DNA from: an uncultured bacterium | Lineage (GTDB): Bacteria > Patescibacteriota > Minisyncoccia > Phycocordibacterales > UBA6065 | DNA length: 36,489 nt | Direction: 5' to 3' | Assembly: GCA_903842365.1 (NCBI GenBank) | Contig: CAIMLU010000029.1 | Coordinates: 1-36,489, forward strand | Shown here: piece after piece, positions 5,225 to 25,528 of the stretch | How the letters are laid out: every line of letters begins with the position of its first letter | Numbering within the stretch: the stretch's first letter is position 1 | The notes under the pieces: model-generated | What the model was told of the DNA's origin: nothing | Database searches by the model: none | What the model saw: only the letters and a program-made list of their open reading frames with translations | Made by a program: the position numbers and the translations under genes

Positions 5225-6394
5225 ATGATTGATATATTGGTTATTGATAATAACCTCGTTTTAAGATACTCAACAGAAAATCCATGGGTTATTGATAGGT
5301 CGCAGATCACAGACATAATTCCTATCAAAAAAAACCTGTTCGTGTTCTCAAAACACGATATTTTGAGGAGTGATAATACTTACGGTGAAGAAGTTGATTT
5401 CATTTTAGGAAAACTAAATGACGCAGGGTACTTTTATATTGAAGGAAAAAAACTTGAAATTGAACACGATGTATATTTATATAAAGATATTAATATCTCA
5501 GACCGTTTTTTTATAGGGGTACGAAATACTAGTATTTTTAGAGAAATTAGTAGTGTGGTTACACAGGATATTTATATTGGAGGACATCACCCTGAAGCGA
5601 TACCTGGTGACGATTTTTTGTTAATGCTGAAAGATTTTCCAAACCCATATGAAGTTGATAAGTATATTAAAGATAGATTGTCTTCTGTTTTGGAGAACTA
5701 TTTTGATTCAGCTTCTCATGTTCGTGGAAAATATGAAGCCTACATGAATAAAAGGAAAAGTATCCAAGGTGAAAATCTGACGAATTTATTTAGAGAAAAT
5801 GAGGTTGTTAAATATGAGTCAATCTTGGAGAAACTTAGATTCATGCTTGCGAATGAGAAAAAGTACAATGAAAAGCAATGGCAGGTTGAAATACTTCAAA
5901 TTATTTTGTTGTTATATCCAAAATATATTTACTCTTTTAAGGAGGCACCTGTTTATGATTCTTATAGAAAGACAGAGCGCAAAATCGATTTTTTGTTAGT
6001 AGATCCCAATGGAAATGTTGACATTATTGAGATTAAAAGACCAATGGGTGAGAAAATAATAACAAAAACACAATATAGGGATAATTTTATACCACTGAGG
6101 GAATTGTCTGGAACTGTAATGCAAGTCGAGAAGTATGTGTATCATCTAAGCAAGTCAGGCCAAGATGGAGAAAATAAATTGACAAAAAAGTACAAAAATA
6201 AAATTCCTCCCGGTTTTAAAATTAAAATAACCAATCCAAGTGGAATAATTATTATGGGTAGGGATAATCTGCTTTCCAGTGAGCAGAAGGATGATTTTGA
6301 GGTCGTGAAGAGAAAATATCGTAATGTAATTGATATTATAACTTATGATGATCTTTTGAGGAGGTTGGGATCTATCATTGTTGCCTTGAAATAG
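5225..6394 (+). CDS. sduA: Shedu anti-phage nuclease SduA (DUF4263)
   Basis: A 389-residue protein. The C-terminal half matches the Shedu/DUF4263 nuclease domain, a PD-(D/E)XK fold: KIDFLLVDPNGNVDIIEIKRP carries the presumed metal ligands D255, E269 and K271, followed by a Gln-containing helix (ELSGTVMQVEKYVYHL) and the family ending GIIIMGRDNL... and VIDIITYDDLLRRL. Shedu proteins protect bacteria against phages and act as nucleases when triggered. The N-terminal 180 residues form a separate, unrecognised domain, probably the sensor, as is typical because Shedu N-termini vary. Shedu is normally described as a single-gene system; here it follows three small genes on one transcript, which is unusual. 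It is convergent with the recombinase gene with only 42 bp between them. Confidence 0.85.
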   Translation: MIDILVIDNNLVLRYSTENPWVIDRSQITDIIPIKKNLFVFSKHDILRSDNTYGEEVDFILGKLNDAGYFYIEGKKLEIEHDVYLYKDINISDRFFIGVRNTSIFREISSVVTQDIYIGGHHPEAIPGDDFLLMLKDFPNPYEVDKYIKDRLSSVLENYFDSASHVRGKYEAYMNKRKSIQGENLTNLFRENEVVKYESILEKLRFMLANEKKYNEKQWQVEILQIILLLYPKYIYSFKEAPVYDSYRKTERKIDFLLVDPNGNVDIIEIKRPMGEKIITKTQYRDNFIPLRELSGTVMQVEKYVYHLSKSGQDGENKLTKKYKNKIPPGFKIKITNPSGIIIMGRDNLLSSEQKDDFEVVKRKYRNVIDIITYDDLLRRLGSIIVALK

Positions 6395-6436: not shown

Positions 6437-7699
6437 TTAACTCAACTTAATTTCTTTATTACTTAAGACCAGCTTACTTTTTAAACAAACCAACAAATCT
6501 CTTTTCTCAAAAATACTTCCTTCTTTAAGTAAGTATTTTGCGTAATTGCGAATATCGATGTCTTTCACGGAATAGTCACGTTCCGTGTTTCCAAGAATTC
6601 CAACACTAAATCTCTTATGTCTCTCAATCTCAGCACTAAGTTTTTTCCTCAGTCCTGATTGGTTGAGGTCTATTTTATCCATCATTTCAGTAAGCTGGCT
6701 GATTAAGTCTTCTTCTTGGAGAAATACTTTCTTACAGTTCCTATCTTTAATTGCGGTACAAGAATAGTAAATATATTTCCTCACGGAACCATCCGCAAGT
6801 TTTTTGTACTTTTCCTGTGCTGTTATTCCTGATCCGCATAAACCACATGTCATCATTTTAGTGAAAGCGAACTCTTTCGGAGTTGCTTTTGCGGTTCTTC
6901 GATATACTAATAACCCTTGGACTTCATCAAATAATTCTTTGGAAATAATAGGGGTGTGTTTACCTTGATACCATTTGCCACTTTTCTTTGGATATTCAAA
7001 TACACCGTAATAGAAATGATTGTGAAGTATGCAGAATATGTTACTCATCGTGAGCGGTTTTCCACTACGTGCCGTCATCTTTAGTTCGTTATGAATCCAT
7101 AGGGAGACTTTCTTTCCGCTCCATCCTTCATAAGCAATCTTTTCGAACATTTGTTTGACTATCGGGGCTCGTATAGGGTCAGTGTGAACCACGCAGAGTT
7201 CATTAACATTTGGACTGTTTAAGTATCCTGTGGGCGCCTGTGCGGGCCACAGACCCATTTCACAGCGCGTTCGCAATCCTCGCTTCACATTCACGCTTTT
7301 GTTGTCATTCTCGAGTTTTGCTTGGGAACAGAGGATCATGAGGAGAAACTTATCACTTGGGTTATTCGTAAACTTTTGCCCGTACGTTCTAATCTCAACA
7401 AGTGCTTTTTGATCCATTAAATCTACTACTGAACCAAGGTCGCCGGCGTTGCGAGAGAGGCGATCAGGATTCCACGAAATGATGCCGTTAAACTTTCCTG
7501 AGCGTATATCTTCCAGTAGCTTTTTAAATACAGGTCGCTGTCCAGAATCTTTTGCTGAATGGGCTTCTCGGTAGATATCGGCGACTTCAATGTTGTCGCG
7601 TTTTGCGAGAGCGAGCATTTCATTTACCTGAGAATCAATCGACAGAATTTGTTTTTCTTCTTGCTCGGTACTCTTACGAGCATAGATGCAATACTTCAT
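6437..7699 (-). CDS. Large serine recombinase (site-specific integrase)
   Basis: About 420 residues with the order expected of large serine recombinases: resolvase domain with nucleophile S10 in YCIYARKS, NPDRLSRNAGDLGSVVDLM, the recombinase domain (GYLNSPN..., GWSGKKVSLWIHNELKM), and a zinc ribbon with C285-x2-C288 and a later Cys pair region (YSCTAIKDRNC). Such enzymes integrate and excise phages and mobile elements by a phosphoserine intermediate at short attachment sites. The frame is open upstream to an ATG at 7795, but MKYCIYARKS at 7699 fits the family start, and the extra 32 residues have no recombinase character; no clear ribosome-binding site decides. It is the best candidate for having mobilised the surrounding accessory block. 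Confidence 0.88.
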   Translation of the reverse strand: MKYCIYARKSTEQEEKQILSIDSQVNEMLALAKRDNIEVADIYREAHSAKDSGQRPVFKKLLEDIRSGKFNGIISWNPDRLSRNAGDLGSVVDLMDQKALVEIRTYGQKFTNNPSDKFLLMILCSQAKLENDNKSVNVKRGLRTRCEMGLWPAQAPTGYLNSPNVNELCVVHTDPIRAPIVKQMFEKIAYEGWSGKKVSLWIHNELKMTARSGKPLTMSNIFCILHNHFYYGVFEYPKKSGKWYQGKHTPIISKELFDEVQGLLVYRRTAKATPKEFAFTKMMTCGLCGSGITAQEKYKKLADGSVRKYIYYSCTAIKDRNCKKVFLQEEDLISQLTEMMDKIDLNQSGLRKKLSAEIERHKRFSVGILGNTERDYSVKDIDIRNYAKYLLKEGSIFEKRDLLVCLKSKLVLSNKEIKLS

Positions 7700-7904
7700 C
7701 TTTATTGCCGGTGCAATGGTTGATTGGGCCATCAAGGCGCTTGTTTGTATTTCCATGCATCCATTGATGACAGACCAACCAGGGGAGTAAAGCAAGGGAA
7801 GTTGGCAACGTGTTGGCAGCTGCTCTTAGCAAGACTAATGGTCTGCGTTAAGGTTGGACTGGTAGTGCATTTGGCGCTATCATGTTCCCTGACAGTAAAA
7901 AAGT
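7700..7904. other. Stretch upstream of the recombinase gene, no gene seen
   Basis: This is either the N-terminal extension of the recombinase or its control region. It contains AGACCAACCAGGGG (about 7773-7786), similar but not identical to the 14-bp repeat at 3654 and 16552, so an attachment-related site here is possible. Short potential stems are present (for example CAAC/GTTG near 7808), none convincing alone. Confidence 0.3.
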
Positions 7905-8045
7905 AGCCTAAACCATCGAGAGATCGGTGGCATGGTGAAAGAAGTCGATCAAGAATAAAGAACCCATCATGGGGTTTGCTTGATCGCCGTGTCAGGAAAC
8001 TGGCACGTGGGGCTTCGGCTCCAACCCGTGGTGGGCTTTTTGTTT
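7905..8045 (+). ncRNA. Candidate structured RNA with stable tetraloop hairpins
   Basis: Four hairpins follow one another: CCATCGA-GAGA-TCGGTGG (7913-7930), CGATCAAG/CTTGATCG with an inner AACCC/GGGTT (7946-7986), CGTGTCAG-GAAA-CTGGCACG (7988-8007) and TGGGGC-TTCG-GCTCCA (8008-8023). The last is followed by CCCGTGGTGGGCTTTTTG, a terminator-like end. GNRA and UUCG loops closed by full stems, with G-U pairs, are signs of selected RNA structure. The 5' end and promoter are not identified. It lies between the recombinase gene and the OB-fold gene and could be a small RNA or a leader of the latter. I do not recognise tmRNA, RNase P or SRP signatures. Confidence 0.5.
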
Positions 8046-8078
8046 ACCGCGATTTATAAGACGATCAAGCAAATAATT

Positions 8079-8738
8079 ATGAACACACCAGTTCAGCCTT
8101 CAGAGAGTAAGGCTAAAAAGATAACTCTCGGCGGTATTTTTAGTTGGATGTTTTTTCTCTTTTTCGCTTTAGCTGGTCTCATCGCTCTTGTTGGAAAACC
8201 ATCTGTGGGCGTGTTGTTTTTGTTGGCATCGGTAATTTGTTTACCAGCCACAAATTCACTTCTTAAGAAGCATGCTAACTTTTCATTCTCAGGGGGTGTA
8301 AAAGTCCTCCTTGTTCTTGTTCTCATTGCTATATCAATCGGTATTTCTGCTCCAGGAAGTTATAACGTAGATAGTGGTAAGCAAGCAGACACACCGCAAG
8401 CACCATCTGCACCTCGTGAGACAATCAAGGTAACTGCAACTCAACTTGCTGATGATTATAAGAACAATGAAATTGCTGCAGACGCAAAATACAAAGGCAA
8501 TTTTGTAGAGGTGTCGGGTGTTATCGATACCATTGGAAAAGATATTATGGATACACCTTATGTATCACTAACGGCTTCTCAGTATTCCATTGTTGGTGTT
8601 CAGTGTATGTTCAGCAGGGAAGACGCTTCTCGCCTTGCTGGCTTATCAAAAGGCCAATCAGTAACCCTTCGTGGCGAGGTTTCATCAAAGATGATGAATG
8701 TAATTGTAAGGGGTTGTTCAGTTGTGGGGACAAAATAA
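8079..8738 (+). CDS. Membrane protein with OB-fold tRNA_anti-like domain
   Basis: A 219-residue protein starting at the ATG at 8079; an upstream in-frame ATG at 7980 would lie inside the structured RNA and is unlikely. Residues 15-95 contain three hydrophobic segments (FSWMFFLFFALAGLIALV, VGVLFLLASVICLPA, VKVLLVLVLIAISIGIS). Residues 112-219 resemble the tRNA_anti-like OB-fold family: VTATQLADDYKNNEIAADAKYKGNFVEVSGVI..., ending SKGQSVTLRGEVSS. Proteins of this family are often membrane or secreted; their ligand is unknown despite the name. It ends just before a strong bidirectional terminator. Confidence 0.7.
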   Translation: MNTPVQPSESKAKKITLGGIFSWMFFLFFALAGLIALVGKPSVGVLFLLASVICLPATNSLLKKHANFSFSGGVKVLLVLVLIAISIGISAPGSYNVDSGKQADTPQAPSAPRETIKVTATQLADDYKNNEIAADAKYKGNFVEVSGVIDTIGKDIMDTPYVSLTASQYSIVGVQCMFSREDASRLAGLSKGQSVTLRGEVSSKMMNVIVRGCSVVGTK

Positions 8739-8755
8739 GATTTAAACAAATAGCG

Positions 8756-8792
8756 AAACCCAGACGTACTTTATTCAAGTACGTCTGGGTTT
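8756..8792. terminator. Bidirectional terminator between convergent genes
   Basis: AAACCCAGACGTACT (8756-8770) pairs perfectly over 15 bp with 8778-8792; the loop contains the stop codon of the minus-strand gene. T-rich sequence (TCGTTTTGTTTTT) follows on the plus strand. Confidence 0.85.
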
Positions 8793-9208
8793 TCGTTTTG
8801 TTTTTCTTTGTTTTGCTTCTCAATCTGAGCCTGTATTTGTTCTTCAGTTGGATCCGGGTCACCGTGTTGCATAAATACAACTGTTTCAATACGCCTTGGT
8901 TTCATAAATTCTGGTGGTGTTTGCTCCCTCGGCTTCCTATACGCCTTCTTGTTGTTTTCAAGTATGATTTTTGCAGCCTGGATGTTTCCCTCACGTGCCT
9001 TTTTTACAAGTGTATTCTCTGCAATATCACATATGTGATCTGTGCCCATTTGTAAGGCCTCTTCCACTTCGTACCTAAATCTAGGGTCTTTAGCTTCCCA
9101 TCGGTATACACTCTGTCGAGATATTCCAATCTTTTCACAGCAGAGTGATTTATTGCAGGTCTTCGTCAAACACTCGAGGAAAGGTTTTTCCTTCTTATAG
9201 CGTTTCAT
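8771..9208 (-). CDS. Terminase small subunit-like HTH protein
   Basis: A 145-residue soluble protein. Residues 12-45 (LTKTCNKSLCCEKIGISRQSVYRWEAKDPRF) form a helix-turn-helix of the type seen in phage terminase small subunits and related DNA-binding proteins; it is followed by the usual helices (EVEEALQMGTDHICDIAENTLVKKAREGNIQAAKIILE). The tail (residues 100-145) is acidic and Gln/Glu rich, probably disordered. It overlaps the 3' end of the methyltransferase gene by 14 bp, so the two form an operon. No large terminase is present, so it may be a phage remnant or a DNA-binding partner of the methylase. Confidence 0.65.
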   Translation of the reverse strand: MKRYKKEKPFLECLTKTCNKSLCCEKIGISRQSVYRWEAKDPRFRYEVEEALQMGTDHICDIAENTLVKKAREGNIQAAKIILENNKKAYRKPREQTPPEFMKPRRIETVVFMQHGDPDPTEEQIQAQIEKQNKEKQNENPDVLE

Positions 9209-10466
9209 AGGCTTTCTTCACTAAAGCTTTCTTTCCGGTAAGTTTCTCGTATCGACGCATCGCGAGTTCGCAGAAGACAGGTTCAATCTCTACGGCGAAT
9301 ACACGACGTTTGAGTTTCTCTCCAGCCATGATGGTGCTACCAGACCCAGAGAAGCTGTCGAGAATAATGTCACCCATCTTTGTGCAACGGCGAATTGCTT
9401 TTTCATACACATCAGGTGGTTTCATGGTGCTGTGTTCGTATTCGTTTCCTGGAAGCCTCTTTGCGAGCCATAAATCAATCTCATCGAGCATGTCGTTGCC
9501 TGTTGTTCCGTTTACATTCATAACCTCGTTGAGTTTAGTAATCCCTTTAACTATGTACGGCTTTCCACGGACACCATATGTGCAAGGTTCATAGCATTTA
9601 TTGAATGCGATTCCAGGTGTGGGGTTTTGTCCGTTTTTGACCCAGAGGCATACTCGCTTGTTGGTGATACCAAGAGAGCGGTAGAGGATTTGTATGAGCC
9701 AGATATAGGTTTGATCAGACCAATAGAAGACATGAGCATCTTCTTTGGTGACGGATAGGGCAGCGACCATGCTCTTTCGTATGAATTCCTCATATTCCTG
9801 GTCGCTCTTGTTATCGTCCACTGTTCCACCGTATGCCTGCTTTCCCCCAATACCTCCGTTGTAGTCCACAGAGATGTTGTAGATAGGGTCAGACATGATT
9901 ATAGATGCCCGTTCGTTTCCGAAGAGTTTTTCGAGCGTTTCTTTCTTGGTTGAGTCGCCGCAGATTAATCGGTGTTCTCCAAGTTCAATAATGTCTCCTT
10001 GAACGATAGAGGTTTCTTTTATTTTCTTTAGTTCTTCCTCTTCGTCGAAGGGTTTTTCTTCGGCCTCAAAGTTCCACATCGAGTCGAGTTCATTTTGATT
10101 GAACCCAATATCGAGAAGGAGATCGAGGTCGAAGTCTTTCAATTTATCGAAGTCGAATTCACCAGTGTTTTTATTGAGGCGGATATTGAGTTCTTTTTCT
10201 TTTTCAATATCTGTGATGTGTAGATAAACGATAGGTACCACATCCATACCAATTTTCTTGGCCACTTTGAGCCTGAAATGCCCACCTATGACGATGTTTT
10301 CTCGTCCAGGTGCGTTATTGCATATGATAGGGTCGACTAAGCCGAACTTGGTTAGGCTATCTGAGAGTTGTTGCTCCTGCTCCTTTGTATGCTTACGGGG
10401 ATTGTATTCCGCTGCTTTAAGGGTGGTTGCTAATACGTACTCGATTGCGATGTTTTTTGAGGACAT
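9195..10466 (-). CDS. ParB-domain DNA methyltransferase (phage type)
   Basis: A 423-residue fusion. Residues 8-95 are a ParB/sulfiredoxin-like N-terminal domain (NPRKHTKEQEQQLSDSLTKFG, VIGGHFRLKVAKKIGM). Residues 155-420 are an N6-adenine/N4-cytosine methyltransferase with motif IV before motif I: SDPIYNISVDYNGG at 192-205 and DSFSGSGSTIMAGEKLKRRVFAVEIEP near the C-terminus. Such fusions are common in phages and mobile elements and methylate host or phage DNA. The catalytic tetrapeptide reads DPIY (D193-Y196) in place of the usual DPPY, which may alter or impair activity. It is the first gene of a two-gene minus-strand operon. A typical start (MSSKNIAIEYV) is used. Confidence 0.85.
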   Translation of the reverse strand: MSSKNIAIEYVLATTLKAAEYNPRKHTKEQEQQLSDSLTKFGLVDPIICNNAPGRENIVIGGHFRLKVAKKIGMDVVPIVYLHITDIEKEKELNIRLNKNTGEFDFDKLKDFDLDLLLDIGFNQNELDSMWNFEAEEKPFDEEEELKKIKETSIVQGDIIELGEHRLICGDSTKKETLEKLFGNERASIIMSDPIYNISVDYNGGIGGKQAYGGTVDDNKSDQEYEEFIRKSMVAALSVTKEDAHVFYWSDQTYIWLIQILYRSLGITNKRVCLWVKNGQNPTPGIAFNKCYEPCTYGVRGKPYIVKGITKLNEVMNVNGTTGNDMLDEIDLWLAKRLPGNEYEHSTMKPPDVYEKAIRRCTKMGDIILDSFSGSGSTIMAGEKLKRRVFAVEIEPVFCELAMRRYEKLTGKKALVKKAYETL

Positions 10467-14321: not shown

Positions 14322-15236
14322 ATGAATCAAGATTTATTTATCTCCTATGCGTGGACTTCACCTGAACACCGTGAGTGGGTTAGGTTGTTTGCGAGTCAGC
14401 TTCATTTGCTTGGCTACAATATAAAGATTGACGAAACCGTTGATTATGGATCAAGCCTCAGTGGCTTCATGCGGGAAATTACCGATGCTAATCACGTTTT
14501 ATTGATTATCGACGAGAATTATACGGAACGCGTCAATACTAAACCAGAGTCAGGGGTGGGTATAGAGAACAAGTGGATTCGTGGTGTATTCAATGACAAA
14601 CCAGCTGGGTGGTTATCCGTTATTTTTGTCCGAAATCCTAAGTGTAAGATGCCTGATTGGTTAACTAATCACAATCCGAAAGGTTTTAACTTTAATTCCA
14701 ACCCTGATAAGAATGAGTTCCCTGGCACTACACAAATTGATGATGTTTGGCGATGGGTTGAGGGTTTACCGGCTGATAAAATAAATGCGGTGCCATTAGC
14801 TGAGGTTTGTAAGCGTGCTGCACGAGTTGAACGTGTTGATGCGCAGCGTGATCCTGCTAATTATACAAATCCAACTCTTAAAAATAGAGTTACGTTTCGG
14901 TATCGAGACCATCAATATTTTACGGTTGGTAATGGAGAGTACAAGTTTCAGATCAGTTTTAGTGGGGCAAACACTAATTGTGTTCATGTCTACACTGATG
15001 GTGGTCTTAAAGCACTAGGTCTTATTACTTCATCAAATTATAATCCAGAGACTGCTGAGTCTTTTCTTAGACCTGGGCGTGTTGTTACACCAGTTGTGGG
15101 TCAACGGGTAGTGCTTTTAAATCAGCATGGCACACTATGTATTATTACGATTGATGAAGTACAGTACGAGGTTAACACTGCTGAGGAATATATTCCTGGG
15201 CATGTAACATTTTCTTATGAGGTGTTAATGAATTAG
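14322..15236 (+). CDS. SEFIR/TIR-domain protein with C-terminal beta domain
   Basis: A 304-residue protein. Residues 1-170 are a SEFIR/TIR fold: DLFISYAWTSPEHREWVRLFA at the start, LHLLGYNIKIDE, HVLLIIDENYTERV, and SGVGIENKWI with E82 where catalytic TIR domains carry the NADase glutamate. Bacterial TIR and SEFIR proteins are often effectors of phage defence that consume NAD+ or make signal nucleotides. Residues 185-304 are a separate beta-rich domain (VTFRYRDHQYFTVGNGEYKFQISFSG, then GHVTFSYEVL) that I do not recognise and that may sense an infection cue. It is coupled to the HEPN gene; together with the upstream RNA they may be one system. Confidence 0.75.
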   Translation: MNQDLFISYAWTSPEHREWVRLFASQLHLLGYNIKIDETVDYGSSLSGFMREITDANHVLLIIDENYTERVNTKPESGVGIENKWIRGVFNDKPAGWLSVIFVRNPKCKMPDWLTNHNPKGFNFNSNPDKNEFPGTTQIDDVWRWVEGLPADKINAVPLAEVCKRAARVERVDAQRDPANYTNPTLKNRVTFRYRDHQYFTVGNGEYKFQISFSGANTNCVHVYTDGGLKALGLITSSNYNPETAESFLRPGRVVTPVVGQRVVLLNQHGTLCIITIDEVQYEVNTAEEYIPGHVTFSYEVLMN

Positions 15237-16789: not shown

Positions 16790-19700
16790 ATGGTTATGAT
16801 TTTTTCCAAGGAAAACACGCTTTCTGACGCTTTAATTCATCGTGCTGATGAACTGGGTAAGATCACCTCACTGTCTATGGATGAATCGGTTGCACAAAAC
16901 TGCGTTGTTGGACATCGCACTGCTTCGTCCGTGGTAATAGATCGTTTTCGTACGCTTGCAAAACAAGTTTCTCATTCTCGTTACATAAACCACGAAGTTG
17001 AGTCAATCCTCGATAATTTTTTTATCATCGAGACGACTGTTTTTGATATAAACACCGCATTCAAGAAGCGTGATTTCAAAAAATTTCCACTTATCACAAA
17101 AGCAAAAGGTGAACGATTTTTGCGTCTCTATTCGGTGCTTCGTGAGTTTGTTCAAGATACAAAGGGTAGGGTAGAAAAGACAGACCTCCTCACTTTTATA
17201 AACACGTATCAGCAGTGGAGCCCTTTTTCTATTCGTGAACTCAATGCGGTGCCGGTGATGCTTAAACTTATTCTTGTGGAGGATTTTGGCGAGCTCGTCT
17301 CAAATGCATGTTCTGTTATTGATGAATACAAGAAAGCTGAAGATGACTATGTTGCTATTACAAAAGCTTCTAAGCGTTCATCGTGGGACCCATCAAAAAT
17401 CACATTATCACTCGCAAAGAAATATGGTACGGTTCCTATTAATTTCGGACTTCATCTCATCGGCCGTCTGAATCAAGATGGCTCAAAAATGAGGCCTATT
17501 ATTAAATGGATTCGTCTCAATCTTGAAAAACAAGGGTTCGCAACTGATTCATTGTCATGGGTGGAAGAGGGGGTTCGTACAGAGCAGACGACCTTGATTT
17601 CTAATATCACTGAATCTCTTCACTGGCTAAATCAGGTACGGTGGGATGCTGTGGCGGAAAAGGTGAATATAGTTGATGGGGTGTTGTCAGGTGATCCATC
17701 TGGGGTTTTCAGCTCTCTCAACCTCGAAACAAAAAATGAATATCGAAACGTGGTTGTACGCTTGGCCGAACAGGTTTCAATTCATGAGGCGGAAATTGCT
17801 AGGGTTGCGGTTCAACTTGCCTCACACAACAAACAATCAAATGACCCATTGTCCTCAGTAAAACGACACGTTGGTTACTATTTAGTTGATGTCGCAGGGC
17901 GACAAATGCTTGAACGGGAGGTACATTACCGTCCCACTAATAGTGAGCGACTCTACCGGCTCATTCTTAATCATCCATCAAGGTCGTATTTTGGATTGCT
18001 ATTAAGTATTTCTCTGGGACTCTCTGCCGGCACACTCTCTTTACTGGGCTTTCCAACCCAGATGTCTTTAGTGTGGGTGGTGTGGGTACTTGCCACTTTT
18101 TTGATTAATCTCGAGATTGCTATTCATGTTTCAAATATACTCGTCACACGGGTATTACCTGTTCGCAAACTTCCTCGATTGAATCTTGAGCATGATTTAG
18201 GTGAAAATCACAGGACATTTGTGGTGGTTCCTTCAATGCTCAGATCTGAAAAATCAATACGTGACCTTGTATCTAAACTTGAGACTCGTTATGTAGGTAA
18301 TCAACAACAAGGTCTCTATTACGCTCTACTTCTCGATTTTCCCGAAGCACACAGTGAGACGTTGGATACTGATGCGTCCCTTATACAGATAACCAAAGAG
18401 GCAATTGCTTCACTCAACGCAAAGTATGCACAAGGTCTGGAAAAACGATTTTTCGCTCTTATTAGGAAGAGGATTTGGAATGAATCTGAACAAGTCTTTA
18501 TGGCTTGGGAGAGAAAGAGGGGAAAGCTCCGTGAGTTTAATGAATTAATGAGAGGGAAGGATACTACATACATTATCACGGACGATGTTGAGAGTCTTTC
18601 ACGTATACGTTATGTAATCACGCTTGATGAGGACACCGAGCTCCCACATGATGCTGCGCGTAGGTTGGTTGGTGCAATTGCTCATCCTTTGAATGCGCCC
18701 GTAATAAATACAAATGGAAAAGTTATTCGTGGTTACGGTATTATACAGCCCCGTGTAAGTGTCAGGCTTTCAACTGCAACCCGATCTGTTTTTTCACGTC
18801 TCTATTCAGTTGTTTCGGGTATTGATTCATACTCGGGACCCGTATCAGACGTGTACCAGGATTTGTTTGACAATGCTCTCTTTTTTGGAAAAGGGGTGTA
18901 TGACATTGATGCGGTTGAATCGTCGATGAAAGGCAAGATTCCAGATAATACAGTCCTTTCCCATGATCTCCTTGAAGGTTTATATACTCGAGTTGGCTTT
19001 GCGAGTGATATTGTATTGTTTGATGGTTTCCCAAAGTTTTACCACGAGTTTATTGTTAGACATGAGCGTTGGGTTCGTGGCGATTGGCAAATAATTGGGT
19101 GGCTCTCGGGTAAATTTAGACAAGGTAAATACGGTGTGCCTGTTGAACGGCTTGCTTTTGTTGATCGTTTTAAAATATTTGATAATTTAAGACGAAGTTT
19201 GGTGCCTGTTGCTGCGCTCTGTTCCCTTGCGATTGGTTATTTAACAGATATTTCCCTTGAAGTAACAACGGGTTTTATCGTACTTGCCCTTATTGCACCA
19301 TACGCATTACCGTTCATTGTTTCAATGGCTCATAAAGGTAGCGCGCCATTTCGCCTACGTATTCGCAAATGGGTTGATGATGTATTTGTTCTCGTTATTC
19401 ACAGTGCGTTGAGGATTTTCTTTTTACTTGAACAAGCACTTGTTTCTGTTATTGCGATTACTAAAACATTATGGCGTCTCTATGTTACTCGCAAGAAACT
19501 ACTTCAGTGGAAGATATCCGAAGATGTGGGCGCTAAACTTGTCGGTCGTTTTTACGAATACTACAAAGTTATGCGATTGAGTGTTTTGTTAGCCATTACC
19601 ACTTTCGTAGTTGTCTTAATACGAGATGGAAATGGTGTTATGGTTGCGTGGTCACTCGTGTGGCTTGTTGCACCTTTTATTGCATACAGTATTAGTATCC

Positions 19701-22700
19701 AGACAGATATAAAGGCTAAACTTGGCAAGCAAGGCATTTCGTTCGTGCGTGGAATGGCGTACAGAAATGCTCTCTTCTTTTTAGACAACGCAAAAAGGGA
19801 AACTAACTGGCTCATACCCGATCACGTACAGGAACGCCCTCGCGTTATTGGTGAAGATCGCAAGATGACTTCACCGACCAATATGGGAATGCATATCTCA
19901 AGCCTCATTGCGGCTCATGAGTTGGGTTACCTTTCGACTAATCGCTATGCCGATAGGATTGATAGTATGTTCAAAAGTCTTTCTAGGCTTGAACGTTGTA
20001 AGGGGCATTTTCTTAATTGGTACGATGTTGAAAAACTTGAGGCAATTCAACCAAAGTATGTTTCGAGTGTTGATAGTGCAAATTTGCTCCTAGCATTCAT
20101 TGCCGCGGAGCAATCATATCTTCGTATGGGCTCAAAGCCACTTGTAAGCCATGAAATGGGCAGGGGTGTTGCTGATGCTTTGCGTGAATTTTCACGCGAT
20201 ATCAGTATGTTCAAAAACGTCGTTCCAAAGACAGTTGCAAAAGATGTGGTGTCTTTGCAGAAAGTGTTGAAAGATATTCTTAAAGAAACGGCGACGCTGT
20301 CACAGCTTATGCCTCAAGATTACGTGAACAAGCTCACCATACTTCACAAGCGAATGAGTCGCATTGTGCATATAACGAAAGAGATTGTTGCGAATGACCC
20401 AGGACCTGCTCTTGTCTTTCATCTGAGCTCTGCTCAATCTGCAATGAGTGTGATCGAAGACCAAATGCTCTCACTTCAGTCACTTTTGCCTTATATACAT
20501 CACTCAGATCATTCCGCTGCACTCTATGCGACACATGATTCTGCGGTCCTTAATCTGGTCCACTTGATTGAAAAGGAAGCTGTCTCGGGCTTCACGTTAG
20601 ACTTGATTGCAGATTCAATACCCACTTCAATTGCGAGACTGAGTTTCCTTGAGACTCTCGATGTTTCGAGTCTTTCACGGGAGTCAAAACGTTTTCTTGC
20701 TGAGTGGTATAGGCGTATTGTTTCGGATGTTGATTCAGGTGCTGAAAACGCAAGACGTATACGCAATGTGTTTGCTCGAGTTGCTCGTGAATCTAATGCT
20801 TATGTTAAAGAGGCCGATTTTGGTTTTCTCTATAACAAAGAGAAGGAATTGTTCCATATAGGATTCAACGCCTCGTTCAACCGCATGGATGCCGCTTGCT
20901 ACAACTTCATGGCTTCTGAATCGAATGCTGTCAGTTTTGTCGCTATTTTAAAAAATCAGGCCCCTCAAAAGCACTGGTTCTATTTGAGCAGAAAATTGGT
21001 TCGTTCTGGTGGTGACGTATCTTTGGTTTCATGGGGAGGATCTCTCTTTGAGTATCTCACATCACTCATTTTTTTCTCGACTCACAAAGAAAGCCTTCTA
21101 GGTGCAACTGCGCGGGCTGCTATCAATGTGCACAGAAAGCATGCGCGCAAGCATAGAATGCTCTGGGGTATGGGTGAGTCAGCATATGCAAGCTTTGACA
21201 ATGCAAAGAGGTATCAATATCAAGTGTTCGGTAGTAATGAAATAGGTCTCAAGAGAAACCTCGGTGATTTCCTGGTTGTTGCTCCATATGTGAGCGCCCT
21301 GGCGTTGCCTATTGTGCCGAAATTAGCTTATCGCAATCTATGCCGGTTTGTTAACAATAAAATGTGTGGAAAGTATGGTTTCTTTGATGCACTTGATTAT
21401 TCTGATGGACAAGGAGGACGCGCTAAACAACCTGTTCCTGTTGAAATTTATTATGCACATCACCAGGGTTTTGCGTTGTGTTCAATGTACAACTCGATTG
21501 CTAATAATTCGATGCATCGGCTGTTTCATCTAAATCCTGCCGTTCGCTCACTCGACACCTTATTTGAGGAGAGGATGCCTGACACACCCGCAGCAGAGAC
21601 GTTGTCATTTCCTGTGTCGCTCACGCCATCGCAGCTCTCACCAGTGCGTGATACGGGCATGGAGAGCAAGAGGCTTATCATAGTGAAATCAGCATTTCCT
21701 CAATATTCATTTATTGCGAACCGGGATTGTGCTGTACGTATTTCTGAGCAAGGCTCTTGCACGAGCTCATATCGGGGAATAGCTCTCACTCGACCAAAAG
21801 CAGATGCACATAGCGGCAGTGAAGGTACTTCGATGTATATACGCACCCACAACAGTTCTGAGTTCTTTTCGGTATTACCCCATTCATCATTGTCGGATAG
21901 TAGGCGTCGGGTGACCTTCCAGGAAAATAAAGTTGAGTTTTTCGAAGACCATAAACAATTTGAAACATCTCTATCAATTTCCGTTGATGATAAAGCTCCT
22001 GTGATTATCCGTGAATTGTATGTCACAAATAAAAGCCAAGAGACGCTCTCCTTTGATGTGGTTACTTATGGTGAAGTATCTCTTGCATATGAAAACCAGG
22101 AACTCCACCATCCGCATTACCAACATATACTCGTAGAGTCAGAGGATAATCAAGCGGGGACAGGGGTTATATTCTCTCGACCCCACCCACAAGATAGATC
22201 AAAGAAGATTTATTTTACACACTACCTTGCACAATCAAGTTTCTCTCGTAGGAAAGTTTCATTTACCTGTGCCCGGAATGATGCATTTTCACAATATGGC
22301 GTCTTTAATCCGTTTCTTGTGTTTGATGCCAACAGGAAACCTAATCCAAAAGTACCACTTGATCCTGCATTTGTTGTTGGGGCCAAAATCTCGCTCAAGC
22401 CAGGAGAACATTCACACCTCTTTTTCGTTGAGATAGTTTCAGAATCAAGAAATGAACTTGAAAAATTACTGCAAAAATATGCATCACCACGTCTCGCTCG
22501 TCGTATTTCATCGCGTGCAATTGAACACAGCGTTCGCCTGACAGGCGATCTGGGTGTATCTCAAGACACGGCGGTTGTATTCCAAAACATAGCCTCCATT
22601 GTCATCTCGGGAATCAGAAAAAGTTTCGAGAGTAGTGTTCACGGAGTAAAACCGGTTGTTCACTCATTGTGGAACCTTGGTGTATCGGGCGATCACCCCA

Positions 22701-25528
22701 TTGCGCTGTTTATCGTATATGACATTGGTGATATTCCAACGGTTCGCCAAATAATTCAGTGTTTTTCTTATTGGAAGACAAAAGGTATTGAAATTGATGT
22801 GGTTATCCTCAACAATCAGCCAACCAGTTATATGAAAGTGTTTGATGATGAAATCGATTTCTTGGTGAGACAAGCAAAACAAAATAGTGCAGGCTGGACA
22901 AAATCTACGCTCTACCAAGTAAAAGGTGATTTGGCGTCCGAGGAAGATAAAAAAGTTCTCATAGGTTCTGCGCGCTTTGTTGTGGATATAAAAAAAGGAA
23001 CACTTACCGACGCGGTTCGTCTGTGCTGTAAAAATATGCCAGGTGCAGAGGCGGGTAAGCGTCTTAAGCTAAAAAGCAAAACAGTAAATGCATCACATGC
23101 CGAGGTTGAGGTGATTGAAGTACAAAAAAATCTCGACCACCATAACTCATGGGGTGGTTTTGATAGGGTAACAGGTCAATATGTTATGTCCGTTTCTTCT
23201 CACAATATGCCTCCAAAGCCATGGAATCATATTATTGCTAACGAGCACTATGGTGCGATATTAGGCATATCAGGAGCCACTTATTCGTGGTCAGAAGATA
23301 GTTATGACAACCGAATGACCTCGTTCTCGAATGATTCATTGCAATACACAAGCGGGGAGACTGTGTATATTCGTGACCGTGCATGTGGTACGGCATGGAA
23401 CCCGACGCCGTTCCCGATAAAAACAGGTGCCCCATTTTCTGTGATTTATGGATTTGGGTATGCGGAATACTGCTCTGAATATAATGGTGTTAAATCAAAA
23501 TTTACAACCTTTATACCTGAAAATGCTTCGGTAAAAATTTCTCTACTCGAACTTTCCAACACCACAAAAGAAAGACAAGACTTAACCATTTTCTCGCATT
23601 CAGTTCCAGTGATGGGTATGCTTCGTAGTCATCTTGTTGACCACATTCAATTTGATTTTGACGAGTATGCTCGTGCGCTCTTTTTCAGAAATGGTTTCAG
23701 AAATCAATTTGAGGGTTCTGTGGGATTTGTATCCTTTGGTGATGCACCAGGGGTTATATCATATACCACTGATACAAAAGAATTCTTCGGTAATCACGGT
23801 TCTTATGAAAACCCAATAGCAATGAGACTTGCATCGCTCTCAAATTCTACCAAGTCGCATGGGGATAGTTCTATTGTTCTCGCTCTCGAAGTTCATCTTG
23901 AACCAGGTGAATCGAAGACAATTCCCGTAATCATTGGTGAAGCAAAAAATCGAAGTGAAGCAGAACGCATTGCGACACACTGGTCCACACCCCACGTCTC
24001 TATTGCTGCCCTTGATCCAGTTATTAACTCATGGAAAAAGAAGTTGGGTGCCGTAAAAGTCTCTACGGGCGATACATCGGTTGATTACCTTATGAATGGG
24101 TGGCTCCTCTATCAAGCTCAAACTTCAAGGATTTTGGCGAAGACAGGATATTACCAACCCTCGGGTGCTTATGGATTCAGAGATCAACTACAAGACTCAT
24201 TGTCTCTACTCTGGTCGAACCCTCAGTTTGTGAAATCGTTCATTATGAAGGCCTGTTCAAAACAGTTCGTTGAGGGAGATCCTCTTACTTGGTGGCATGA
24301 ACACAATATGTTTGGATTGAGAACAGTGCTCTCGGACCATCAGTTGTGGCTCGCCTATGTTGCTGGTGAATATGTTCGACACACTGGAGATACTGGTATC
24401 TTTGATATTCAGGCACCGTTCCTTTCTGGTCCCACTTTGGACTTTAGCGGGCACGGTGAATGGGCGGGAATACCACATGTCGCATCCGAGGGCGCTTCTG
24501 TGTACGAACATATTATGCGTGCTATTGAGAAGAGTCTTGTGTTTGGTGAACATGATTTACCTCTCATAGGTTATTCTGATTGGAATGATGGTTTGAGTTC
24601 GGTTGGACGCAATGGTAAAGGTGAGAGTGTTTGGTCTGCGTGGTTTATACTCTCTATCATTGATTCAATACTCCCTTATGTTATTGCGCGTGGCGATACT
24701 GATAGAGCGACCTCTTTACGTAGTGCACAAAAAACGATTGAAAAAGGCCTAGAGCAGTTTGCTTGGGATGGTCGATGGTATCGTCGAGCGTTCTTTGATA
24801 ACGGAACGCCACTCGGTTCACGAAAACTGAAAGAGTTTAGGATTGATTCAATTGCACAATCGTGGTCCGTGATCAGCAGATGTGGTGACAAAGAACATAC
24901 CCTCACTGCGCAAAAATCAATGGTAAAACACCTTCTCAAGAAGGATTATTTTGCCTTGATTGACCCGGCGCTTTCTTCGGGTGCTGTACGTCCTGGATAC
25001 ATTCAGGATTATCCTCCAGGTATTCGTGAAAACGGAGCGCAATACAACCATGCGGCACTCTGGGCTATTCAATCACTTGCGATAATTGGTGATATTGAGA
25101 ACGCTTCAAAGATTCTTGATTTAGTTAACCCTATCAAACGATCCGAAGGCCGTGAGAAAGCACAGTGGTATGGCGTTGAGCCATATGTTGTTGCCTCGGA
25201 TATTTATGGGGGTGAACGGGCGGGTCAAGGTGGATGGACGTGGTACACCGGATCTGCGGGCGTTATGTATCGCACTGTTATTGATAACTTGTTTGGTGTC
25301 ACACGTCGTGGAAACATTATTGAACTCTCACCTCATTTACCACTCTCGTGGAATAATCCAAAAATAACAATCCTATGCGGGTCATCTGTCTACGATATTA
25401 TCTTTCAAACTGATAAGGGCAGAACGACGATTGAACACTGTGAACTTGATGGTGTGGCGATTGATTATCTCTCGATTCCTTTTGTTGACGATGGTTGTAA
25501 GCACATAATAAAAGCCGCGCTCATCTAG
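16790..25528 (+). CDS. ndvB: Cyclic beta-1,2-glucan synthase-like protein (GT84/GH94)
   Basis: A 2912-residue membrane protein, the normal size for NdvB/ChvB cyclic beta-1,2-glucan synthases, which polymerise UDP-glucose and cyclise the chain for export to the cell surface. Visible parts: helical N-terminal region 1-390; membrane segments about 400-450; a GT84 glycosyltransferase region with DxD in LDEDTELP (D613, D615) and HERWVRGDW at 758-766; more membrane segments about 803-970; a long middle region; beta-sandwich regions; and a C-terminal GH94-type phosphorylase module with YSDWNDGL (D2597) and a GYIQDYPPGIRENGAQYNHAALW segment. GH94 in this family trims or sets chain length. The true start may be the Met at 16796. 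It is a single-gene unit between two strong terminators. So large a glycan synthase is striking in a presumed reduced genome. Confidence 0.88.
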   Translation: MVMIFSKENTLSDALIHRADELGKITSLSMDESVAQNCVVGHRTASSVVIDRFRTLAKQVSHSRYINHEVESILDNFFIIETTVFDINTAFKKRDFKKFPLITKAKGERFLRLYSVLREFVQDTKGRVEKTDLLTFINTYQQWSPFSIRELNAVPVMLKLILVEDFGELVSNACSVIDEYKKAEDDYVAITKASKRSSWDPSKITLSLAKKYGTVPINFGLHLIGRLNQDGSKMRPIIKWIRLNLEKQGFATDSLSWVEEGVRTEQTTLISNITESLHWLNQVRWDAVAEKVNIVDGVLSGDPSGVFSSLNLETKNEYRNVVVRLAEQVSIHEAEIARVAVQLASHNKQSNDPLSSVKRHVGYYLVDVAGRQMLEREVHYRPTNSERLYRLILNHPSRSYFGLLLSISLGLSAGTLSLLGFPTQMSLVWVVWVLATFLINLEIAIHVSNILVTRVLPVRKLPRLNLEHDLGENHRTFVVVPSMLRSEKSIRDLVSKLETRYVGNQQQGLYYALLLDFPEAHSETLDTDASLIQITKEAIASLNAKYAQGLEKRFFALIRKRIWNESEQVFMAWERKRGKLREFNELMRGKDTTYIITDDVESLSRIRYVITLDEDTELPHDAARRLVGAIAHPLNAPVINTNGKVIRGYGIIQPRVSVRLSTATRSVFSRLYSVVSGIDSYSGPVSDVYQDLFDNALFFGKGVYDIDAVESSMKGKIPDNTVLSHDLLEGLYTRVGFASDIVLFDGFPKFYHEFIVRHERWVRGDWQIIGWLSGKFRQGKYGVPVERLAFVDRFKIFDNLRRSLVPVAALCSLAIGYLTDISLEVTTGFIVLALIAPYALPFIVSMAHKGSAPFRLRIRKWVDDVFVLVIHSALRIFFLLEQALVSVIAITKTLWRLYVTRKKLLQWKISEDVGAKLVGRFYEYYKVMRLSVLLAITTFVVVLIRDGNGVMVAWSLVWLVAPFIAYSISIQTDIKAKLGKQGISFVRGMAYRNALFFLDNAKRETNWLIPDHVQERPRVIGEDRKMTSPTNMGMHISSLIAAHELGYLSTNRYADRIDSMFKSLSRLERCKGHFLNWYDVEKLEAIQPKYVSSVDSANLLLAFIAAEQSYLRMGSKPLVSHEMGRGVADALREFSRDISMFKNVVPKTVAKDVVSLQKVLKDILKETATLSQLMPQDYVNKLTILHKRMSRIVHITKEIVANDPGPALVFHLSSAQSAMSVIEDQMLSLQSLLPYIHHSDHSAALYATHDSAVLNLVHLIEKEAVSGFTLDLIADSIPTSIARLSFLETLDVSSLSRESKRFLAEWYRRIVSDVDSGAENARRIRNVFARVARESNAYVKEADFGFLYNKEKELFHIGFNASFNRMDAACYNFMASESNAVSFVAILKNQAPQKHWFYLSRKLVRSGGDVSLVSWGGSLFEYLTSLIFFSTHKESLLGATARAAINVHRKHARKHRMLWGMGESAYASFDNAKRYQYQVFGSNEIGLKRNLGDFLVVAPYVSALALPIVPKLAYRNLCRFVNNKMCGKYGFFDALDYSDGQGGRAKQPVPVEIYYAHHQGFALCSMYNSIANNSMHRLFHLNPAVRSLDTLFEERMPDTPAAETLSFPVSLTPSQLSPVRDTGMESKRLIIVKSAFPQYSFIANRDCAVRISEQGSCTSSYRGIALTRPKADAHSGSEGTSMYIRTHNSSEFFSVLPHSSLSDSRRRVTFQENKVEFFEDHKQFETSLSISVDDKAPVIIRELYVTNKSQETLSFDVVTYGEVSLAYENQELHHPHYQHILVESEDNQAGTGVIFSRPHPQDRSKKIYFTHYLAQSSFSRRKVSFTCARNDAFSQYGVFNPFLVFDANRKPNPKVPLDPAFVVGAKISLKPGEHSHLFFVEIVSESRNELEKLLQKYASPRLARRISSRAIEHSVRLTGDLGVSQDTAVVFQNIASIVISGIRKSFESSVHGVKPVVHSLWNLGVSGDHPIALFIVYDIGDIPTVRQIIQCFSYWKTKGIEIDVVILNNQPTSYMKVFDDEIDFLVRQAKQNSAGWTKSTLYQVKGDLASEEDKKVLIGSARFVVDIKKGTLTDAVRLCCKNMPGAEAGKRLKLKSKTVNASHAEVEVIEVQKNLDHHNSWGGFDRVTGQYVMSVSSHNMPPKPWNHIIANEHYGAILGISGATYSWSEDSYDNRMTSFSNDSLQYTSGETVYIRDRACGTAWNPTPFPIKTGAPFSVIYGFGYAEYCSEYNGVKSKFTTFIPENASVKISLLELSNTTKERQDLTIFSHSVPVMGMLRSHLVDHIQFDFDEYARALFFRNGFRNQFEGSVGFVSFGDAPGVISYTTDTKEFFGNHGSYENPIAMRLASLSNSTKSHGDSSIVLALEVHLEPGESKTIPVIIGEAKNRSEAERIATHWSTPHVSIAALDPVINSWKKKLGAVKVSTGDTSVDYLMNGWLLYQAQTSRILAKTGYYQPSGAYGFRDQLQDSLSLLWSNPQFVKSFIMKACSKQFVEGDPLTWWHEHNMFGLRTVLSDHQLWLAYVAGEYVRHTGDTGIFDIQAPFLSGPTLDFSGHGEWAGIPHVASEGASVYEHIMRAIEKSLVFGEHDLPLIGYSDWNDGLSSVGRNGKGESVWSAWFILSIIDSILPYVIARGDTDRATSLRSAQKTIEKGLEQFAWDGRWYRRAFFDNGTPLGSRKLKEFRIDSIAQSWSVISRCGDKEHTLTAQKSMVKHLLKKDYFALIDPALSSGAVRPGYIQDYPPGIRENGAQYNHAALWAIQSLAIIGDIENASKILDLVNPIKRSEGREKAQWYGVEPYVVASDIYGGERAGQGGWTWYTGSAGVMYRTVIDNLFGVTRRGNIIELSPHLPLSWNNPKITILCGSSVYDIIFQTDKGRTTIEHCELDGVAIDYLSIPFVDDGCKHIIKAALI

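Follow-up and report, generated by a model that had tools for sequence, protein, structure and literature searches.

The c4 RNA of phages P1 and P7 is a structured RNA located just upstream of a gene whose start pairs with two complementary regions, and the RNA and its target are parts of one common transcript. It represses in trans (PMC8546580). In the EcoRI and Eco29kI systems, restriction-modification genes are controlled by antisense RNAs from reverse promoters (PMC3874152). The LOOT RNA family (RF03000) was found by computer search, and no function was assigned to it in the literature searched. Rfam treats LOOT as an sRNA that stops at stem P5 and contains a local inner hairpin in P3; two base pairs were added from R-scape in Rfam 15 (PMC11701678), and the model with these additions still stops at P5. 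Here, we analyzed a LOOT RNA in a 36,489-nt stretch of DNA (the window) from a member of Patescibacteria (candidate phyla radiation, CPR) and compared it with its relatives.

A search with the Rfam covariance models identified positions 7905–8023 (+) of the window as a full-length LOOT RNA with a score of 75.2 bits (E = 1.4e-12), which exceeds the curated gathering score of 46.4 and covers all model positions from 1 to 121. The preliminary description of this region had recognized no known RNA class, which was wrong, and the Rfam search that it had proposed as a check ruled out a mundane RNA (tRNA, tmRNA, or another Rfam family). The four hairpins with GAGA, GAAA, and UUCG loops that it had reported are present on the + strand as described (Table 1), and all four stems belong to the LOOT consensus. 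The region 7905–8045 (+) folded at −60.3 kcal/mol, compared with −41.8 ± 3.5 kcal/mol for 200 dinucleotide shuffles, none of which was as stable (z = −5.34). The reverse fold was weak (z = −1.5), and a transcript on the opposite strand was rejected. Among 47 aligned homologues, 92.8% of the cells were paired and 37 of 43 pairs had two-sided changes, exceeding all 500 shuffles. Stems P1–P5 are thus conserved and covarying in relatives, and substitutions keep them paired rather than breaking them, which bears out the proposal of a genuine structured RNA beside a recombinase gene. The tetraloops, which had been taken as a sign of structured RNA because of their unusual density, are a trait of the LOOT family: the GNRA loop of P4 is nearly invariant, and P5 carries a GNRA or UUCG loop.

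Table 1. Positions of the LOOT RNA, its pairing segments, and the adjacent features in the window
Feature	Position	Strand	Basis or partner
Gene for a large serine recombinase with Resolvase, Recombinase, and Zn ribbon domains, divergent from LOOT; marker of the mobile element	6437–7795	−	
Promoter-like TGGACT-17-TATCAT, about 22 nt 5′ of LOOT	7855–7883	+	9/12 matches; consensus match only
LOOT RNA according to the Rfam model	7905–8023	+	RF03000 match
P1, enclosing P2	7906–7908 with 7934–7936	+	100% of cells paired; two-sided changes
P2 hairpin, GAGA loop	7913–7930	+	89.7% paired; two-sided changes in 6/7 pairs
P3 hairpin	7946–7986	+	Fold; covariation in relatives
P3 5′ arm (arm5), CGATCAAG	7946–7953	+	Locus-specific sequence; copied at 8062
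5′ strand of the pseudoknot, located in the P3 loop; forms Rfam's local inner hairpin as well	7963–7973	+	
P3 3′ arm (arm3)	7974–7986	+	Partner arm5 (8 bp) or copy 8062–8074 (13 bp)
P4 hairpin, GAAA loop	7988–8007	+	98.7% paired; two-sided changes in 8/8 pairs
P5 hairpin, UUCG loop	8008–8023	+	85.1% paired; two-sided changes in 5/5 pairs
Pseudoknot 3′ strand, beyond the Rfam model	8025–8035	+	Partner 7963–7973
T-run 3′ of the pseudoknot strand; may act as a weak intrinsic terminator	8037–8041	+	
Segment pairing alternatively with 8027–8036, replacing the pseudoknot	8042–8051	+	
Downstream copy of arm5, CGATCAAG at 8062–8069; arm3 pairing extended to 8074	8062–8074	+	About 4–5 nt before ATG 8079
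Gene under the leader: 219-aa protein with a hydrophobic N-terminal part and a tRNA_anti-like OB-fold	8079–8738	+	PF12869, E = 5.9e-25

The comparison set consisted of about 180 LOOT relatives, with 60 regions around LOOT copies and 47 sequences aligned with their flanks (alignment A1); some of the loci are related, so counts over loci do not represent independent events. The genome of the window (813 kb, 99% complete) contains only this LOOT RNA. Of 380 genomes from the same phylum, 83 carried LOOT, in 1–7 copies per genome; the 14 control genomes had no LOOT. The named records bearing LOOT are almost throughout Patescibacteria, including Woesebacteria, Levybacteria, Moranbacteria, Uhrbacteria, and Taylorbacteria. 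In one locus (L143), LOOT and a DUF3800-IX RNA (RF02968) lie on the same contig with about 3.5 kb between them.

Of 67 loci, 46 had a large serine recombinase gene within 8 kb of LOOT; the 20 control regions taken from these genomes had none. Genes for TerS-like, TerL-like, and methyltransferase proteins were found only near LOOT and not in the controls, with profiles that were built from LOOT neighborhoods and hence favored them. In IMG/VR, 26 viral stretches were found by pattern, and the model matched 15 of them at E ≤ 0.01, 14 of which were below 1e-4; the remaining pattern matches look like chance. The recombinases, the phage-type genes, and the viral contigs together indicate that LOOT belongs to mobile elements that are partly phage-like. 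A role of LOOT as part of a recombination site was set aside, since LOOT is also found at other places within the elements and at sites distant from any recombinase. In the window, a TerS-like/HTH protein gene adjoins a fused ParB_N and DNA methylase gene (8771–10466, −), and no large terminase was noticed, so this element is possibly a remnant or satellite-like. Other genes of the window include one for an SduA (Shedu) anti-phage defense protein that adjoins the recombinase gene (5225–6394, +; 463 bits in PADLOC), one for a TIR/SEFIR-domain protein matching the bSEFIR defense family (14322–15236, +; Pfam TIR_2), and a single ORF of 2912 aa (16790–25528, +), which is very large for a 0.8-Mb genome. 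The window of this CPR genome also encodes an S-adenosylmethionine synthetase of the PF01941 type (1277–2536, −), a type typical of archaea.

The LOOT RNA does not end where the Rfam model ends. In alignment A1, the P3 loop and the tail beyond P5 form a helix of 14 pairs, in which 95% of the cells were paired and 11 of the 14 pairs had two-sided changes. At 112 loci outside the alignment, the duplex of the loop and its own tail had −26.1 kcal/mol, compared with −14.7 kcal/mol for duplexes with tails from other loci (t = −30), and the loop's own tail was superior in essentially all of them. This helix crosses P3 and is therefore a pseudoknot. The comparison shows that a covarying pseudoknot extends LOOT past the 3′ end given by Rfam in essentially all loci. 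The preliminary description was right about the hairpins and the T-run, but the RNA is not over at the last hairpin, as the tail (8025–8036) and the T-run are part of the pseudoknot region. Rfam's local inner hairpin, which was also more stable than its shuffles, is a competitor of the pseudoknot; these competing pairings are consistent with the 28 "cross-covariations" reported for LOOT (PMC7657543). The tail has a further potential partner, and its pairing with the segment just downstream was enriched across LOOT loci overall. In loci without the copied arm described below, such as L042, the pseudoknot tail can likewise pair with the segment just downstream (GCTAGCGTGG / CCACGCTAGC in G331).

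In the window, LOOT lies directly 5′ of a co-oriented gene. For the relatives, we searched for a co-oriented ORF of at least 100 aa with an ATG start within 150 nt downstream, the start codon of the next gene being chosen by rule. Such an ORF was present at 141 of 164 loci; the figures for the mirrored side and for random positions were 51 of 164 and 27%, respectively. The median distance of the ATG from the end of the LOOT model was 26–30 nt. By inspection, many relatives have TATAAT-like −10 boxes about 15–30 nt upstream of LOOT, and the short gap (20–50 nt) leads us to infer that the gene would be expressed by read-through from the LOOT promoter. The T-run in the window was not scored as a terminator in a promoter/terminator scan of the window.

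The sequence of the P3 stem varies from locus to locus. An exact copy of 8 nt or more from the P3 5′ arm (arm5) precedes the start codon of the following gene by a few nucleotides at 41 of 177 loci. When the arms were shuffled among loci, the mean number of such loci was 2.0 and the maximum was 6 (200 shuffles); 4 matches were found upstream and none with the reverse complement. In 100-nt bins, 42 arm matches fell into the first downstream bin and 0–4, or about 1 per bin, elsewhere, and there was no excess of arm matches, as would indicate further targets, within 1.5 kb beyond the first 100 nt downstream. The copy ends at a median of 3 nt, and mostly 0–7 nt, before the ATG, and the copied segment is flanked by a constant A-rich/CC sequence. 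When ten LOOT segments were tested, only the P3 3′ arm (arm3) paired strongly with the start region in the loci with a copy (own, −18.6; other, −8.1; t = −10.9), and P3-arm pairing with the start region was not detectable in the loci without a copy. Genome G358 carries several LOOT copies, and for each of five arms the best pairing partner was its own start site. Because the copies comprise 26 distinct arm cores and own pairings exceed those with other loci, a single lineage does not account for the effect.

The co-oriented gene close to LOOT and the copy of the P3 arm at its start codon suggest that LOOT is a leader acting on the next gene and not a free small RNA. The earlier label of a small RNA holds as far as a structured RNA is concerned, and the same two counts make a free sRNA doubtful. 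Whether the RNA runs into the OB-fold gene as a leader or ends at 8045 was an apt question, and the relatives point to a leader, which in the window appears to continue functionally as far as the start codon at 8079.

The genes that follow the copied arm differ from the others. Among 36 of them, eight encode N6_N4_Mtase, three MethyltransfD12, and four tRNA_anti-like proteins, the gene in the window being one of the four. Among 104 genes without the copied arm, one encodes N6_N4_Mtase, and the commonest products are zinc-ribbon proteins, DUF2726, SNase, and DUF4352. Genes with the copied arm are enriched for restriction-modification methyltransferases. PADLOC identified type II/III methyltransferases among the genes with the copied arm and the candidate defense families PDC-S11/S18 among the rest. 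A type III toxin-antitoxin system (toxIN-like) was rejected, as the 19 Pfam families that the 36 genes represent include no ToxN-like family.

The P3 helix and the helix between arm3 and the copy had average lengths of 11.2 and 11.5 bp, respectively. At 39 loci, the state with arm5 paired to arm3 (state A) and that with arm3 paired to the copy (state B) differed by 1.6 ± 3.5 kcal/mol in calculations that left pseudoknots out. The predicted pairings of the copied-arm subclass are mutually exclusive and of near-equal modeled energy, and the leader looks bistable because the two helices are nearly iso-energetic. In the window, state B was the predicted minimum (−73.3 kcal/mol, pseudoknot left out; z = −5.4). 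It is fully nested, with the arm3:copy helix enclosing P4, P5, and a hairpin of the pseudoknot tail with the segment just downstream.

The reading that we favor, and to which we give an even chance of being right on the sequence evidence, is that this LOOT RNA would be a cis-acting bistable leader switch of the OB-fold gene on a CPR mobile element. Sequence comparison shows that arm3 has two possible partners of near-equal strength, arm5 and its copy before the start codon, and that the tail can pair with either the P3 loop or the downstream segment; the two sets of partners may represent the two states of the switch. In state A, the pseudoknot would be formed and the copy beside the AUG would be free. 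In state B, arm3 would occupy the copy, which, since the copy ends so close to the ATG, would cover the ribosome-binding region and block translation. State A would be OFF as well if the T-run were an efficient terminator. A factor that binds the 5′ half of LOOT or remodels it would set the balance, and the outcome would be tuned expression of accessory genes, often those for restriction-modification methyltransferases, on recombinase-bearing elements. The copied arm is missing from about three quarters of the loci, and the switch as described therefore covers a subclass. A wider version, which we put forward only tentatively, is a shared leader of CPR mobile elements whose conserved core would sense a general signal, such as arrival in a new host or an attack by phages, and whose locus-specific start-site mimic would switch each cargo gene, defense genes included.

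The layout with two states is the usual build of a translational switch with a start-site mimic, and a c4-like antisense RNA would also be compatible with it. In the latter case, LOOT would be freed by termination or processing and would target the start of the gene just downstream in trans. The two complementary regions, arm3 with the copy and the tail with the downstream segment, are in antiparallel order; LOOT has promoter-like boxes of its own and a T-run; each LOOT in a multi-copy genome is specific to its own start site, as in an immunity-type antisense code; and the context is that of phages and mobile elements. However, both antisense regions would be locked in helices of equal strength in the mature RNA, whereas classic antisense RNAs have exposed loops, the Rfam search gave no c4 match, and the targets are diverse cargo genes rather than antirepressors. 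We regard this explanation as less likely than the leader switch but as its main rival.

An independent trans-acting sRNA, whose upstream placement would merely reflect the compactness of mobile elements, is less probable still. The Rfam type (Gene; sRNA), the diversity of the associated genes, and the absence of the copied arm from three quarters of the loci agree with it, but it does not account for the strong co-orientation and tight spacing of the next start codon or for the placement of the copied arm exactly at that codon. We also consider it improbable, to a somewhat greater degree, that recombination or cassette exchange left the copied arm behind, for instance as an insertion-point duplication, and that the arm has no regulatory role. 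LOOT does reside on recombinase-bearing elements with exchanged cargo genes, and by inspection, the copy in G119 is followed by an apparent truncated methyltransferase gene start; nevertheless, 26 different arm cores were copied, their position before the ATG is constant, they are confined to one strand and one side, and they are kept although P3 varies between loci. A guide-RNA-like element, through which a nuclease-like or repressor protein would bind the DNA where the following gene begins, would fit a variable segment that is complementary to a nearby site and has a constant A-rich/CC flank, but it is very improbable, as no effector family recurs beside LOOT apart from the recombinase, phage packaging, and methyltransferase genes and the variable segment lies inside a perfect hairpin arm and not at a free guide end.

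The leader switch that we favor yields a concrete, testable prediction through the start-site copy, which names the strand partners, the gene, and the mutations that should break and restore control. If it is correct, it would reveal gene control on mobile elements, including that of restriction-modification, in one of the largest and least studied groups of bacteria, and the annotation of the LOOT family would be corrected in its 3′ end, its pseudoknot, and its action as a cis-acting leader rather than an sRNA.

Compared with LOOT as described in Rfam, the RNA in the window has the same P1–P5 and tetraloops over a full-length match, and it adds the long-range pseudoknot past the end of the model, the gene-leader position, and the start-site copy of the P3 arm. 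None of these three additions was found described in the literature searched, which did not cover the original 2017 description of LOOT. Similar to c4, LOOT is structured, phage-borne, and directly 5′ of a gene whose start can pair with two regions; in a subclass of loci that includes the window, two regions are complementary to the start of the same-strand downstream gene. However, the c4 (RF01695) and c4-2 (RF02944) models gave no match up to E = 5, and LOOT differs from c4 in that no sequence or structure relationship was detected, its arms are held in helices, its cargo is diverse, and its hosts are CPR bacteria. LOOT would resemble a translational riboswitch or protein-responsive leader in that arm5 is predicted to mimic the start site and to compete with it for arm3 in mutually exclusive helices of near-equal energy. 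It departs from this type in that every locus has a variable arm of its own and a T-run lies between the core and the start codon, and it is not known to bind a ligand. With the antisense RNAs of EcoRI and Eco29kI, LOOT would share the control of restriction-modification genes at the RNA level, and it differs from them in being located upstream, on the gene's own strand.
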